A stretch of 53,105 bases of DNA. It comes from Candidatus Saccharibacteria bacterium HGW-Saccharibacteria-1 (GTDB taxonomy: Bacteria; Patescibacteriota; Saccharimonadia; Saccharimonadales; Saccharimonadaceae). A program made the translations under genes and the position numbers. The notes below the pieces were generated by a model that made no database searches, was not told the origin of the DNA, and saw nothing but the letters and a program-made list of their open reading frames with translations. Positions 7,270 through 14,773 of the stretch are shown here, piece after piece (the stretch's first letter is position 1; the number at the start of each line of letters is the position of its first letter). The stretch lies in the NCBI GenBank assembly GCA_002839415.1, contig PGXZ01000007.1:1-53105 (forward strand). Direction: 5' to 3'.

Positions 7270-7707
7270 ATGAACAAAGAAGAATCTGTTGAATTGTTTA
7301 AAAAAATACTAAACGATAACAATAAGAGTATTACAAAATCCAGAATGATTGTTTTTAATAACTTACTTGAGAATAGTAATCAGAGCTTATACGAAATAAA
7401 TAAAAAAACGAAAAGTGAAATTAACAGATCAAGTCTATATCGAATTATTGAAATGTTTGAAGACTTGGGGGTTGTCGAAAAAAAACCAATCGGATGGAAA
7501 TATAGAATTGAATTGAGTGACATCTTCATAAATCATCACCATCATATTACATGCAGAACATGCCAAAAAGTATTGGTTGCCGAGTCTAGTCCGGATTTAG
7601 AAAAAATAATTGATGATATCGCAGGAAAAGTAAATTACTCGCTTCAAAAGCATCAAGTTGAAATTAGTGGTATATGCCCTGCCTGTCAAAAAAACAGCAA
7701 TAATTAG
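7270..7707 (+). CDS. zur: Fur-family metal regulator, probably Zur
   Basis: The 145-residue protein has an N-terminal winged helix (NRSSLYRIIEMFEDLGVV recognition region) and a C-terminal dimer/metal domain. This has HHHH near residue 88, then C-x2-C (CRTC) and a terminal C-x2-C (CPAC), the structural zinc site of Fur/Zur proteins. A GTG start at 7243 is also possible but lies inside the operator. The ATG at 7270, 6 nt after a -10 box, is preferred. Divergent orientation to znuABC and the shared operator support zinc regulation and autoregulation. Confidence 0.88.
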   Translation: MNKEESVELFKKILNDNNKSITKSRMIVFNNLLENSNQSLYEINKKTKSEINRSSLYRIIEMFEDLGVVEKKPIGWKYRIELSDIFINHHHHITCRTCQKVLVAESSPDLEKIIDDIAGKVNYSLQKHQVEISGICPACQKNSNN

Positions 7708-7714
7708 TTTTTGA

Positions 7715-8034
7715 TTATTTTTTTATCAATATCTTGTTTTGATAGCTTTTTGTGCACAAAAACCAGTCATGGCATGTCATCTCTGTTTTGTTTGCCATTC
7801 TTTCTTTTGCTATTCCACAAGATCCGGCTGTTGGAACGATTACGTCGTCACCAGGTCGCCAATCTGCAGGAAGGGCTACGCCAAGCTTATCAGCGGTCTG
7901 TAAGTCCAATCAATATACGATAGAGTTCTTTGAAGTTGCACCTAAGCTTAAGGGATGATAAATCATAGCCTATAATTACCTTTTATGTATTAATAAAAAT
8001 CGCACGAGCGGCGTCTGTTTTTGTGTTACCATCC
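7715..8034 (-). pseudogene. Truncated, frameshifted peroxiredoxin copy
   Basis: The minus strand reads GLQ/LQTADKLGVALPADW..., nearly identical to the C-terminal part of the intact peroxiredoxin at 10081-10800, including the TCHDWFLCTK motif. DNA similarity continues to about 8034, but an extra A near 7903 breaks the frame. The N-terminal two thirds with the catalytic Cys are absent. It is a decayed duplicate. Several loose similarities to the intact gene's internal sequence show that the copy ended inside the gene. Confidence 0.85.
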
Positions 8035-8091
8035 GTTTAATAGGGGGGGCTGACGTATGCTATAATTATTGTATCTAAATAAAAAATAAAA

Positions 8092-9765
8092 ATGTATAAA
8101 ATAAAAGAAAAACATAGAATTGTAATCCTAATTATTGCTATATCAATTTTATTTATTGGCGGTTTTGCTTCGTATATTATTATTGGTAAATTAAATAATG
8201 GACATAAACCAGCAGATATCAATAGCTTGGAGGGCAAAGAGAAATCTGGTATTGGCTTAGACAAATCTTTAGCTGAAAAAACTTCAACAGGTTCTAGTAA
8301 TAAAAAATCTGATAATTTACCCAAACCAACTTTGCCGGTCAAGGTTGGCGTCTCAAATAGTACATCAGGGGCTAATGTTAGTGGAGAAATTATAGTGTTA
8401 AAATCGATCAGTGTTAAAGATTTTGGAGCTAAAGGTGACGGTATTACTGATGACAGTGTAGCAATACAAAAAGCGATTAATGAAGCTAGTGCAAATAGCC
8501 AAAATTTAATATTCCCCTCTTCGAGTAAAGTCTATTTAATAAAAAATACAATTACTTTAAAAAGTAATTTATTTATTAGCGGATATGGGGCTACTATTCA
8601 CATGCCTTCGCAAAGTAGTCCAAAGATTATGTTTAAGTCTGGTGGTGAACAATATATTAGGAATATAAAGATTGAAGGTTTGGGCTTTAGTTCCGAAAAT
8701 AATGTAGACGGTGTCAATTATGAAACGGGAAGTAAAACTAGCAATGTTCAAGCAATATATATACAAGGGGTGGACGGTCTAGCTATCAAAGATGTACGAA
8801 TGGATAATATGTATAATGGATTAAAGTTTAATTACTCTGATAAGATGATTTTAAATAACAATATAGCCATAGACGGACTTAACATATATAATTCTCGGAC
8901 ACCAATTTATGCAGACGGAACTAATAATTTTAATATAAAAAATAGTGTTTTGGATGCTGGTGGTGGCGCTACTCATTGGCTCCATTGTGTTTATATAAGT
9001 GCTGATACGGATAATTTTGTATTTGACAATGTGACTTTTAAAAATTCTCCTGGCGGCGGTGTAACGATTGGTAGTAGTTACCCCGAAAGGTCTAATCCGA
9101 AAAATATAACTATAAAAAATTCCAAGATAGAAAATTGCAACCGTGGCTTTAATATATATGGAGCATCCGATGTAGAAGTCTTAAATGTTAATATTTCTAG
9201 GTGTAACCTAGGGTTTGTATCTCATGATGGAGATAATATAAGCGTAGATAATTTATCAATTAATAATGCAACCCAGACAGTTAGTCCCTCTGGTAGTAAT
9301 AACAAGGGTGCATTTGAACTTGGAAATACGACAAATTCTATAATAAAAAATATTATTATTGACTCTGCGGGGATGGCTGGTAGTCTATTTAATATAGAAG
9401 AACGAATTCAAAAAATGACCATTTCATCTGTTGCGGTAAATAACATGGAAGGTATAAGATTTTTTGAAACAGCTAGTAGCCTTATTAGTGATTTTAAAGT
9501 TGAAAATTCTAGTTTTGAGTGGGACAGTATAACTACTCGACGAATTAATTTTAGAACCGCTGGCGCTAGTGCTATATTCAAGAATAACATGTTTATCAAC
9601 AATGGTCCTAGATTTGACTCCCTAGCTTATAATGAAGATGGTACGAATATCTTACTTATAGACAACAGATATTCAGGCTTTAATTTATTAGCTTATGTAC
9701 ATGAGTTTTCAAGACTGACAAACAACTTGAATCTTGACACTGGTATTTACGATCAAGACAAATAA
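8092..9765 (+). CDS. Membrane-anchored right-handed beta-helix protein (Pectate_lyase_3 type)
   Basis: The 557-residue protein has an N-terminal transmembrane anchor (about 9-31) and a Ser/Lys-rich linker to about residue 100. Then comes the Pectate_lyase_3 start signature VKDFGAKGDGITDD with following AIQKAINEA. The rest is rich in N-I/V-x-I-x-N repeats typical of parallel beta-helices. Such domains occur in polysaccharide lyases, epimerases and phage tailspikes; catalytic residues cannot be assigned. It would sit outside the cell and could cut or bind host or matrix glycans. The promoter has TGCTATAAT at 8058-8066 with a 25-nt leader and no Shine-Dalgarno site. Confidence 0.85.
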   Translation: MYKIKEKHRIVILIIAISILFIGGFASYIIIGKLNNGHKPADINSLEGKEKSGIGLDKSLAEKTSTGSSNKKSDNLPKPTLPVKVGVSNSTSGANVSGEIIVLKSISVKDFGAKGDGITDDSVAIQKAINEASANSQNLIFPSSSKVYLIKNTITLKSNLFISGYGATIHMPSQSSPKIMFKSGGEQYIRNIKIEGLGFSSENNVDGVNYETGSKTSNVQAIYIQGVDGLAIKDVRMDNMYNGLKFNYSDKMILNNNIAIDGLNIYNSRTPIYADGTNNFNIKNSVLDAGGGATHWLHCVYISADTDNFVFDNVTFKNSPGGGVTIGSSYPERSNPKNITIKNSKIENCNRGFNIYGASDVEVLNVNISRCNLGFVSHDGDNISVDNLSINNATQTVSPSGSNNKGAFELGNTTNSIIKNIIIDSAGMAGSLFNIEERIQKMTISSVAVNNMEGIRFFETASSLISDFKVENSSFEWDSITTRRINFRTAGASAIFKNNMFINNGPRFDSLAYNEDGTNILLIDNRYSGFNLLAYVHEFSRLTNNLNLDTGIYDQDK

Positions 9766-9939
9766 GTCTTAAAAATATAATTAGGGTTTTGTTCAATAAT
9801 TTGCGTTAAATGATTTAATTTTGGTTGTTATCTTTAGGTCATAGTTTGGGCTAATAATAGGGCGTCAATTATTTCGATTTATTATACTGCTTTTTTTGGA
9901 ATAGGTAGCGTGTCTATTTTAAGGGGAATCTGACACTCA
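9766..9939. other. Spacer between convergent genes, no gene seen
   Basis: AT-rich sequence after the beta-helix gene. It contains a TTATACT box near 9881-9887 that could serve as -10 for the structured RNA that follows, but no good -35 is present. Confidence 0.3.
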
Positions 9940-10080
9940 CAACTTGATGAAGTAGTTAGCGAATACGGTCTTTGGTAAGACCTAATCCGCCGTGCATTCG
10001 GCTTGATCAGTTAGGCTGAGGTAGTTGAGAGTAATCTCAATTAGTCCTGGGTAGGACTTGAAACTGCTTAAAAGCCTAAA
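9940..10080 (+). ncRNA. Candidate multibranched structured RNA, class unknown
   Basis: Within 120 nt, an outer stem AAGTAGTT (9950-9957) / AACTGCTT (10062-10069, one U-G wobble) encloses four hairpins: GGTCTT-tggt-AAGACC (9967-9982), GCCG-6 nt-CGGC (9989-10002, with an alternative CCTAA/TTAGG stem around it), TTGAGA-GTAA-TCTCAA (10025-10040, a GNRA tetraloop) and AGTCCT-gggt-AGGACT (10043-10058). The wobble and the GNRA loop only make sense on the plus strand. It is between two convergent genes and codes for nothing. It is not a tRNA and matched no family I know. Confidence 0.55.
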
Positions 10081-10800
10081 TTATTTTTTATTTAATACTT
10101 TGTCTTCTATGTTTTGCTTTGACATTTTTTTAGTACAAAAGAACCAGTCATAACATGTCATATCTGATTCATTATCCATTCTTTCTTTTGCTACCCCACA
10201 AGATCCAGCTGTTGGAACGATTACGTCGTCACCAGGTTGCCAATCTGCAGGAAGAGCTACGTTAAACTCATCAGCGGTCTGTAGTCCAATCAAAATACGA
10301 TAGAGTTCTTTGAAGTTTCGCCCAAGACTCAGGGGGTAATAAATTATAGTTCTGATTATTCCTTTTGGATCAATAAAGAAGACTGCGCGAACGGCTTTTG
10401 TATTACTTTCTCCCGGCTGGATCATTCCATATGCTTTGGCGACATCCATTTTAATATCTTCAATCAAAGGGAATTTAACTTCCACGTTTTTCATGCCCTT
10501 ATATTCAATCTTTTCTTTGATAGTTCTAAGCCATGCAATGTGACTGTATAACCCATCAACAGATAAGCCAACTAATTGACAATTTGCTTTATTGAACATC
10601 TTTTCCATGCTAGCAAAGGTCATAAATTCAGAGGTGCAAACTGGCGTAAAATCCGCTGGATGGCTGAATAAAATTACCCATTTGCCTTTATAATCCTTAG
10701 GAAAATCGATGTCGCCTTGCGTTGTTACCGCTTTAAAGACAGGAGCCTTATCGCCGATTCTTGGCATTGGTATGATTTCAGTATTAATATTCTGTTCCAT
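10081..10800 (-). CDS. Peroxiredoxin, archaeal-type Prx6 subgroup
   Basis: The 239-residue AhpC/TSA-fold peroxidase has the catalytic PVCT motif (peroxidatic Cys55) in HPADFTPVCTSEF. Its C-terminal extension carries C216-YDWFF-C222, matching the C-x-D-W-x-x-C tail of archaeal thioredoxin peroxidases. It should reduce H2O2 and organic peroxides using thioredoxin-like donors, several of which are encoded in this window. The Shine-Dalgarno is AAAGGGGG. It lies 13 nt after a DUF134 gene. A broken partial copy is at 7715-8034. This architecture suggests transfer from archaea or thermophilic bacteria, which is inference. Confidence 0.93.
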   Translation of the reverse strand: MEQNINTEIIPMPRIGDKAPVFKAVTTQGDIDFPKDYKGKWVILFSHPADFTPVCTSEFMTFASMEKMFNKANCQLVGLSVDGLYSHIAWLRTIKEKIEYKGMKNVEVKFPLIEDIKMDVAKAYGMIQPGESNTKAVRAVFFIDPKGIIRTIIYYPLSLGRNFKELYRILIGLQTADEFNVALPADWQPGDDVIVPTAGSCGVAKERMDNESDMTCYDWFFCTKKMSKQNIEDKVLNKK

Positions 10801-13055: not shown

Positions 13056-14030
13056 TTACCTAATCACCATATTAAACAAATAGCCAGTAAACATAATCCC
13101 CAGGCCAACTATCGATGCATATATTATTATTAACTTTGGCTTAAGTACTTTTCGCAGAATAATGAACTCTGGCAGTGATAGTGCCGTTACGGCCATCATG
13201 AATGCAAGTGCAGTTCCCATGGCCATGCCTTTATCAATTAAAACCGAGACAATTGGAATTGTTCCAGCGGCATTTGAATATAATGGAATCCCAATTAGGA
13301 CGGCTAACGGAACTGCAAATAAATTACTCGGTCCCGCATATTGAACTAATAGGTCATTAGGTGCATAGCCGTGCATCAAAGCGCCCAAACCAACACCTAT
13401 TAGAATATAAATCCAAACGCTTTTTACTATATCAATCGTGTATCTTTTAGCGTAATCAATTCTATCTTTGGCGTTTAGTTTTTTCTCGGCTGCTTCTGAA
13501 CTTTTAATTTTATAGACAAACTCTTCAACCCATTTTTCAAGTTTTAATTTCCCCAGTACCCATCCAGCGATTGTTGCGATCAAGACACCAGATAATATAT
13601 AAATAAGGGCGATTTTCCAACCAAATAAGCCCCATAATAATACTAGAGCGACCTCATTAACCATTGGCGCAGAAATTAGAAAAGAAAAAGTTACACCAAG
13701 TGGTACGCCAGCTTCAACCAAGCCTATAAATAATGGCACAGCTGAGCACGAGCAAAACGGCGTGACTATACCAATTAATGCCGCTAGAAAGTTATTGAAT
13801 ATAGGAAATTTAGCTTTTGAAAGAAACCTTTTAGTCTTTTCGGGCGGGAAAAACGACCTAATAATTGAAACTACGAAAATTATAACCGCAAGTAATATTA
13901 AGATTTTAAGAGAATCATAAACAAAGAAGTTTATGCTATTACCGAGCGGCGTTCCTTTGGTGATATTGAAAACTGAGTATATCAACCAATCAGCAAGCCA
14001 TTGAATTGGCGAGAATATATCCACTAACAA
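13056..14030 (-). CDS. Permease of the ArsP/DUF318 (UPF0718) family
   Basis: The 324-residue membrane protein has about eight to ten helices. Family hallmarks are PFCSCSAVPLFIGLVEAGVP, SAPMVNEVAL and GIPLYSNAAGTIP. Known members export organoarsenicals or are tied to metal/thiol stress. It starts with TTG at 14030, overlapping the preceding thioredoxin gene by 7 nt, as third gene of an arsR-trx-permease operon. The substrate (arsenic species, or another soft metal or thiol conjugate) cannot be settled from sequence. Confidence 0.88.
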   Translation of the reverse strand: MLVDIFSPIQWLADWLIYSVFNITKGTPLGNSINFFVYDSLKILILLAVIIFVVSIIRSFFPPEKTKRFLSKAKFPIFNNFLAALIGIVTPFCSCSAVPLFIGLVEAGVPLGVTFSFLISAPMVNEVALVLLWGLFGWKIALIYILSGVLIATIAGWVLGKLKLEKWVEEFVYKIKSSEAAEKKLNAKDRIDYAKRYTIDIVKSVWIYILIGVGLGALMHGYAPNDLLVQYAGPSNLFAVPLAVLIGIPLYSNAAGTIPIVSVLIDKGMAMGTALAFMMAVTALSLPEFIILRKVLKPKLIIIYASIVGLGIMFTGYLFNMVIR

Positions 14031-14365
14031 TTACCGCCACACGAACAATCTGATTTATCGGGTTTATTATTTGGAGGGGTGTATTTAACGTCGCAGTCAT
14101 TGATGTTTGTACAGCAACTCTCGTTTGTATTGATCGCGTTGTATAAAGCTTCTTTTACATCTTTGTATGAATTTGATTTGAAATCAATTGGCTGGCCGTC
14201 AATAGCTAGGACGGGACTTCGCATTAAACCCATTTCAACAATTTTAGCTATATCGGTGGAATATTCAACTTCTGCATCTATGTTACCTTCTTTAGTTACT
14301 TTTATTACTGCTTCGTGTAGTCTTTTGCAGGTCACGCAACCCGAACCTATTACTGAAATTTTCAT
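14024..14365 (-). CDS. Redox-active disulfide protein 2-type thioredoxin with Cys-rich tail
   Basis: The 113-residue protein has a small thioredoxin fold with SGCVTCKRL (C9, C12 region) and a cis-Pro at RSPVLAIDGQ, as in the MTH895/TM0996 group often encoded beside DUF318 permeases. It carries an extra C-terminal tail with six Cys (SCCTNINDC, SDCSCGGNC) that could bind soft metals. The ATG overlaps the arsR stop (ATGA), and GGGGGA serves as Shine-Dalgarno. Confidence 0.87.
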   Translation of the reverse strand: MKISVIGSGCVTCKRLHEAVIKVTKEGNIDAEVEYSTDIAKIVEMGLMRSPVLAIDGQPIDFKSNSYKDVKEALYNAINTNESCCTNINDCDVKYTPPNNKPDKSDCSCGGNC

Positions 14366-14622
14366 CTTCTGTCCCCCATTGCCGTTAATATTTTGACTAA
14401 TTCATTCAATGACTGCTTGTTAAGTGTGTAATAATTATTTTTACCACAGCGGCAAAAATCAATTAAATTAGCCTTTTTTAGCACCGATATGTGATGTGAT
14501 ACTAAGTTTTGAGGGATTTTTATCTTCTCAACTATTTCGCAGACACACAAAGGTTTTTCAGATAATAGTTTTAAAATCTGAAAACGATTTTCTTCGGCTA
14601 ATGCTTTTAACATATCAATCAT
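14362..14622 (-). CDS. arsR: ArsR/SmtB-family repressor
   Basis: A winged-helix repressor of 86 residues from the ATG at 14622; a longer frame starts at 14670 but would begin upstream of the -10. The helix-turn-helix is IPQNLVSHHISVLKKANLI. The CVC pair in KPLCVCEIV matches the alpha3 As(III)/Sb(III) or metal site, and CRCG in the wing adds further thiols. It should repress its own operon (thioredoxin, DUF318 permease) until a thiophilic metal binds. The leaderless promoter at 14630-14658 ends 7 nt before the ATG. Confidence 0.9.
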   Translation of the reverse strand: MIDMLKALAEENRFQILKLLSEKPLCVCEIVEKIKIPQNLVSHHISVLKKANLIDFCRCGKNNYYTLNKQSLNELVKILTAMGDRR

Positions 14623-14629
14623 TGTTGAT

Positions 14630-14658
14630 ATGTTACTATTCGCTATTGGCGCTGTCAA
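14630..14658 (-). promoter_or_regulatory. Consensus promoter of the arsR operon
   Basis: TTGACA (14653-14658), 17-nt spacer, TAACAT (14630-14635), then 7 nt to the ATG at 14622. This predicts a leaderless mRNA and decides the arsR start. An inverted repeat around the -10 (TATCAACAATGATTGATA, 14614-14631) could be the ArsR operator. Confidence 0.7.
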
Positions 14659-14773
14659 GTAAACACGCACTTTATTGATTTTATATATAAATTTACAATT
14701 TAAATAACTACAACTCGTTGTATAATTTAAAAAAATAGCTTTCTATGACAATTACTTGCTATAATTATTAGCA

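Follow-up and report, generated by a model that had tools for sequence, protein, structure and literature searches.

A hairpin-rich locus of a Saccharibacteria genome traced to a decayed gene end and a widespread 27-nt pseudoknot

What is the strongly folded stretch that separates two convergent genes in the genome of Candidatus Saccharibacteria bacterium HGW-Saccharibacteria-1? The feature (positions 9940-10080) sits between the ORFs 8092-9765 (+) and 10081-10800 (-) of the window, by which we mean the whole 53,105-nt stretch of DNA analyzed. A first-pass annotation had described it as a multibranched RNA, with an outer stem enclosing four hairpins, that codes for nothing and belongs to no known RNA family. 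All five helices could be located (Table 1), and the segment 9948-10072, cut out alone, folds at -44.2 kcal/mol, compared with -29.8 ± 3.6 kcal/mol for shuffled versions (z = -4.0; 0 of 200 shuffles equal), a score that drops to z = -1.6 when about 30 nt of extra flank is included on each side. The minimum free energy (MFE) structure of this segment retains the outer stem and hairpins H1, H3, and H4, as had been proposed, and replaces the short H2 with a longer arm. Across the 53-kb window, three perfect 6-bp hairpins within 100 nt are unique to this region. The covariance models of Rfam 15, run at gathering and at permissive thresholds, assign no family to the feature, in agreement with the annotation on this point; the best chance matches, for the feature as well as for the pseudoknot described below, were unrelated families, none at gathering score.

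Table 1. Features of the locus and of its surroundings, in window coordinates.
Feature	Position	Strand	Sequence or detail	Basis
Outer stem	9950-9957/10062-10069	+	AAGTAGTT/AACTGCTT	sequence
Left strand of outer stem	9950-9957	+	ordinary codons (E-V-V) in intact relatives	aligned copies
Hairpin H1	9967-9972/9977-9982	+		sequence
Hairpin H2	9989-9992/9999-10002	+	GCCG/CGGC, only 4 bp	sequence
Hairpin H3	10025-10030/10035-10040	+	GTAA loop	sequence
Hairpin H4	10043-10048/10053-10058	+		sequence
3' remnant of DUF7249-family gene	9934-10044	+	HSQLDEVVSEYGLW*DLIRRAFGLIS*AEVVESNLN*	protein match, E = 3.2e-12
Decayed 27-nt post-stop pseudoknot copy	10043-10069	+	AGTC CT GGGT AG GACT TGAAACT GCTT	pattern and covariance model, E = 1.9e-5
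Pseudoknot stem 1, 5' strand	10043-10046	+	partner 10055-10058	sequence, stem 1 covariation
Pseudoknot stem 2, 5' strand	10049-10052	+	GGGT, partner GCTT 10066-10069	class covariation
Pseudoknot stem 1, 3' strand	10055-10058	+		stem 1 covariation
Loop 3	10061-10063	+	near-invariant AAA	class conservation
Pseudoknot stem 2, 3' strand	10066-10069	+		class covariation
Peroxiredoxin gene, convergent neighbor	10081-10800	-	AhpC-TSA/1-cysPrx_C	ORF list and domain match
Decayed duplicate of peroxiredoxin 3' end	7700-8045	-		sequence comparison

Protein and DNA comparisons identify 9934-10044 as what remains of the 3' end of a DUF7249 gene from a mobile element. The protein match at the window site has stops inside it (TAA at 9976-9978 and TAG at 10012-10014, both in frame), and similar DNA occurs at four sites of the same genome, the window counted, and at one site, 83% identical, in a genome of the same genus. 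A 96-amino-acid gene is intact at G026:C8:151-441 and G000:C7:26096-26386 (one in the own genome, the other in the same-genus relative), and a relative with 59% identity lies on G000:C26. The two intact copies match PF23907 (DUF7249) with 43.0 and 42.9 bits at a cutoff of 27, and the protein also matches phrog_871, a phage family, with distant relatives in cyanophages. The window copy resembles the 3' end of such DUF7249/phrog_871 genes but differs from them in being truncated and interrupted in frame: it fails as an open reading frame, and because it has stops inside and lacks its 5' half, we regard it as a relic. Hairpins H1 to H3 and the left strand of the outer stem are codons of this dead gene, which argues against the multibranched housekeeping or guide RNA considered previously; the GTAA "tetraloop" of H3 comes from AGT AAT, which encodes Ser-Asn. 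The description of the region as noncoding is accurate for today's sequence and misleading as to its derivation. A guide, junction, or transposon RNA was rejected as well, given that the identified neighbors in the window are not transposases and that the similar copies are gene ends. One of the intact DUF7249 genes stands at the start of its contig, near a DUF3768 gene, a Replic_Relax-like protein, and a serine recombinase, and this region (L041, G026:C8, 151-4740) is probably an integrative element.

As a conserved RNA, the four-hairpin junction was rejected: in nine relatives the fold shows 82% pairing, compared with 79% after shuffling, and 6 double changes (shuffle mean, 3.3), none of them in the outer stem or H4, so that the covariation check proposed for it did not come out convincingly above controls. 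Among the relatives compared, the full set of helices is present in the window copy only. Could this copy have been recruited as a new structured noncoding RNA after the death of the gene? The folding score of 9948-10072 would fit, as would the 13 derived changes, of which 11 fall in MFE pairs (5 create a pair, 4 strengthen one, 2 weaken one, and 0 break one), and simulated random decay attains the stability of the window copy in 1.9% of runs. However, the spot had been picked for its structured look, for which reason we rate the pattern of derived changes as a weak hint of later selection on the window copy. Moreover, an orthologous locus was not found, convincing covariation is absent among relatives of the fold, and another relic (G026:C21) is unstructured (z = +0.6). 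We therefore consider such a recruitment very improbable.

H4 and the right strand of the outer stem fall outside the gene and, between genera, are better conserved than it. By their match to the class, we identify them as a degraded representative of a 27-nt H-type pseudoknot that is widespread elsewhere. Its consensus reads stop codon, at least 5 nt, NNNC CU NNNN A N GNNN nn AAA CU (or AG) NNNN, and a G-poor tail, where NNNC/GNNN form stem 1 and the loop NNNN pairs with the final NNNN as stem 2. In the window copy both stems are complementary, and the C-U, the A, and the AAA are all present, with three of the four stem 2 pairs being G-U wobbles. It does not lie at least 5 nt past the stop of an intact ORF: an in-frame TAG (10042-10044) overlaps stem 1, and in the alignment with the intact neighbor (TGA-GTTCGAGT-AGTCCTGAGT...) a deletion of about 10 nt takes out the spacer. 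With its spacer deleted, its stem 2 mostly wobbles, and its gene broken, the window copy is probably nonfunctional. The link to mobile DNA and the plus-strand RNA structure that had been suggested at the outset are thus both recovered, the structure being this 27-nt pseudoknot and not the four-hairpin junction.

The DUF3768 gene of the probable integrative element also carries a pseudoknot at its 3' side (L009:1849), and at the intact DUF7249 gene of G000:C7 (L002:1609-1640) the downstream pseudoknot is missing, cut off directly past the stop codon in what was probably a recombination event. The pectate-lyase-like gene 8092-9765 is flanked by the 3' third of the peroxiredoxin gene (10081-10400), next to the window copy, and by the decayed duplicate of this third, a layout that points to an old insertion or duplication event between the two peroxiredoxin 3' copies. 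Elsewhere in the window (13056-14670), an ArsR-type regulator, a small thioredoxin-like protein, and an ArsP_1 permease form a metal/metalloid efflux arrangement.

The class itself is defined by covariation in both stems. When stem 2 was left unconstrained in the search, all four pairs were complementary in 184 of 213 copies, with GAGC/GCTC, AAGC/GCTT, GGAC/GTCC, GGTC/GACC, CAGC/GCTG, and GGCC/GGCC among the combinations. When stem 1 was left unconstrained, its three pairs were complementary in 207 of 209 copies, in at least 15 combinations that include GTC/GAC, GAC/GTC, ATC/GAT, TTC/GAA, and CAC/GTG. In 333 of 398 copies, stem 1 is extended on its outer side by a fourth pair. The closing pair is C-G, with G-C as an alternative nine times. 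Across 140 sequences, picked for stem diversity, 93.8% of the cells are paired, double changes number 206 compared with 61 in shuffles, and the covariation score is 0.575, whereas shuffling gives 0.229 and sliding no more than 0.165. In the whole viral collection, neither the reversed pattern nor a broken stem 1 (CAGC/GACG) gave any match; the rebuilt stem (CAGC/GCTG) gave 3 matches and a swapped stem 1 (CGAC/GTCG) at least 120. The C-U of loop 1, the A following stem 2, and the AAA of loop 3 have almost no alternatives, an invariance that is partly imposed, since the seeding patterns fixed the core letters for most copies and only the additional, unseeded copies test them freely; these agree with the core letters. 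Altering the core letters (AAA to TTT, CCT to GGT or TCC) left 0 to 2 paired matches, compared with 409. At positions 21 and 22, which precede the last strand, two subclasses can be told apart: 352 copies have CT, with a T able to pair with the invariant A, and 40 have AG; any other dinucleotide is rare. In Arthrobacter phage Molivia (L227:4001-4031), one copy has an extended last loop (GTTGTAAAACTGCTC) and sits directly before a tRNA-Gly; length variants may be undercounted.

The core GTCCTGAGYANGACNNNAAANNGCYY was found in 25 of 295 genomes of the order (its reversed pattern in 0) and in none of the sampled members of the phylum outside the order. The genome of the window has nine copies when the core is slightly relaxed and one mismatch is allowed, and the covariance model likewise finds nine places. 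A scan of IMG/VR for intact copies yielded at least 120 stretches. Annotated copies belong to phages of cyanobacteria (Nostoc, Microcystis, and Synechococcus phages), actinobacteria, Firmicutes, and alphaproteobacteria, and the carriers include Mycobacterium phage Labelle, the Arthrobacter phage named above, staphylococcal, streptococcal, and Lactobacillus phages, the thermophilic phage D6E, Paracoccus and Ruegeria phages, and one Streptomyces plasmid. Intact copies have no match in Rfam 15 at gathering score.

Most copies of the pseudoknot are intergenic, and their position follows a rule. Only 3 of 154 copies lie within a same-strand ORF of at least 100 amino acids, compared with 51% of random positions, and 42% of the 154 start 5 to 9 nt past the stop of an ORF of at least 60 amino acids (random, 1%). 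Among 384 copies, the spacer between stop codon and stem 1 is almost never shorter than 5 nt, with 5 nt as the mode (73 copies), 6 nt in 37, and 7 nt in 20; a second, separately seeded set of 90 has no spacer below 4 nt, one of 4 nt, ten of 5 nt, nine of 6 nt, and sixteen of 9 nt. In about 30% of the copies, the 30 nt upstream hold no end of an ORF of 50 codons, which short ORFs or other settings may explain. The upstream genes are mixed; the commonest, DUF932, precedes just 17 of 71 copies, which led us to reject an explanation by one gene family. What lies downstream varies among the next gene, scaffold or endolysin genes, a tRNA, and a U-run. A tRNA starts 4 to 15 nt past the pseudoknot in 28 of 384 copies, close relatives included, compared with 15 of 724 control gene ends that have any tRNA within 200 nt. 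A U-run follows within 15 nt in 11% of copies (controls, 2.8%), and the tail from +2 to +9 is poor in G (7% versus 22%). An order of DUF932 gene, pseudoknot, and tRNA (mostly tRNA-Asp), with the tRNA 4 to 15 nt past the knot, recurs at L135:1460-2600, L115, and L171. A riboswitch was rejected in view of the mixed genes and tRNAs downstream, which form no consistent regulon, and an intrinsic terminator because a U-run comes directly after the structure in only 11% of copies. Open frames of at least 50 codons past the stop are less frequent than at controls in all three frames; a programmed frameshift or readthrough signal was rejected, as the extension frames are not longer than at control gene ends.

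In the geometry of frameshift pseudoknots, a knot at least 5 nt beyond a stop codon held in the A site stands at the mRNA entry of the ribosome and is therefore as near to the coding region as a structure can come and still escape unwinding. With the stop codon in the A site, an intact knot of the class would fold immediately outside the ribosome's mRNA entry, so that translation would never unwind it. It would be a lasting shield against 3'-to-5' exonucleases, no matter how the transcript acquires its end downstream: through tRNA processing, at a U-run, or by an endonuclease. We tentatively read the intact pseudoknot as a putative shield of the mRNA 3' end because it would stay folded, abuts the coding sequence, is indifferent to the downstream context, and precedes tRNA processing sites and U-runs. 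The wide host range speaks for an interaction with universal machinery (ribosome, exonucleases) and against one with a single phage protein. To the explanation as a whole we assign a probability of roughly 75%; within it, the shield is the likeliest role of the pseudoknot, though slightly less probable than not.

The position rule could also reflect an action on the terminating ribosome, with the pseudoknot blocking sliding after termination, tuning release or reinitiation, or keeping the translation of neighboring genes apart. A distance of 5 to 9 nt between A-site codon and knot is that of -1 frameshift stimulators, and the lower limit of the spacer is sharp at 5 nt; however, some copies precede tRNA genes or U-runs, where there is no gene to separate, and readthrough frames are no longer than at control gene ends, which makes this action rather unlikely in our estimation. 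The excess of U-runs, the tRNAs immediately 3' of the knot, and the G-poor single-stranded tail, which would suit an endonuclease, are what one would expect of a signal for RNA processing or transcription termination that makes the 3' end rather than protecting it. This we judge unlikely, considering that 89% of copies have no U-run and that many lie within operons, where transcription must run through to the next gene. Finally, a mobile sequence at gene boundaries of mosaic genomes might be a DNA-level linker that promotes recombination of phage modules and no RNA element at all, but the compensatory changes in both stems give up DNA identity while keeping RNA pairing, and pair 10-24 of stem 2 shows 26 U-G wobbles versus 5 unpaired cells, so that a linker is barely credible. 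Returning to the shield, we propose with some reserve that an undescribed class of 27-nt pseudoknots is shared by DNA phages and by mobile elements related to them, across many bacterial phyla, and that it might be a general device guarding phage mRNA ends from host decay, or else act on termination. If true, this would offer a handle on how phages keep their mRNAs alive in nuclease-rich hosts, a compact and portable part for 3' ends, and a marker for annotating where phage genes end.

The class, as defined by its architecture and position rule, looks new so far as this is testable, with the two RNA catalogues likeliest to contain it outside the comparison; the H-type fold itself is known. A search of the open literature with the sequence string and for phage pseudoknots gave no matching description, and we know of no bacterial RNA class that keeps a ribosome-sized distance from stop codons across phages of several phyla. 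The -1 frameshift pseudoknots of the luteovirus type, such as BWYV P1-P2, are small H-type knots with a 2-nt loop 1 and an A-rich last loop. The phage class shares these traits, the unpaired junction base, and the A-site spacer of 5 to 9 nt, but it has another sequence, its carriers here are DNA phages, and it follows a true stop codon, without a noted slippery site or an open extension frame. With the stop-readthrough pseudoknot of Mo-MuLV, which is established to lie a few nucleotides past its stop codon, it has this location in common; unlike there, downstream frames are not longer than controls, and phage copies precede tRNAs and the starts of separate genes. Among bacterial RNAs, STAXI comprises pseudoknots near mobile DNA genes and the L17 downstream element is a structured RNA in a 3' UTR (Weinberg 2010, PMC2864571), whereas the phage class matches neither in Rfam, occurs as single copies per site, and has no fixed tie to a gene family. 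The staphylococcal cabRNA derives from terS-terL and not from a pseudoknot site (PMC10686824). The closest parallels in 3' location and expected shielding are the stabilizers of mRNA 3' ends (REP/BIME hairpins and terminator stems) and the exonuclease-resistant RNAs of viruses; compared with the former, the phage class is a knot rather than a long hairpin and keeps a fixed spacing from the stop codon, and compared with Xrn1-resistant RNAs, it would act on the 3'-to-5' side.
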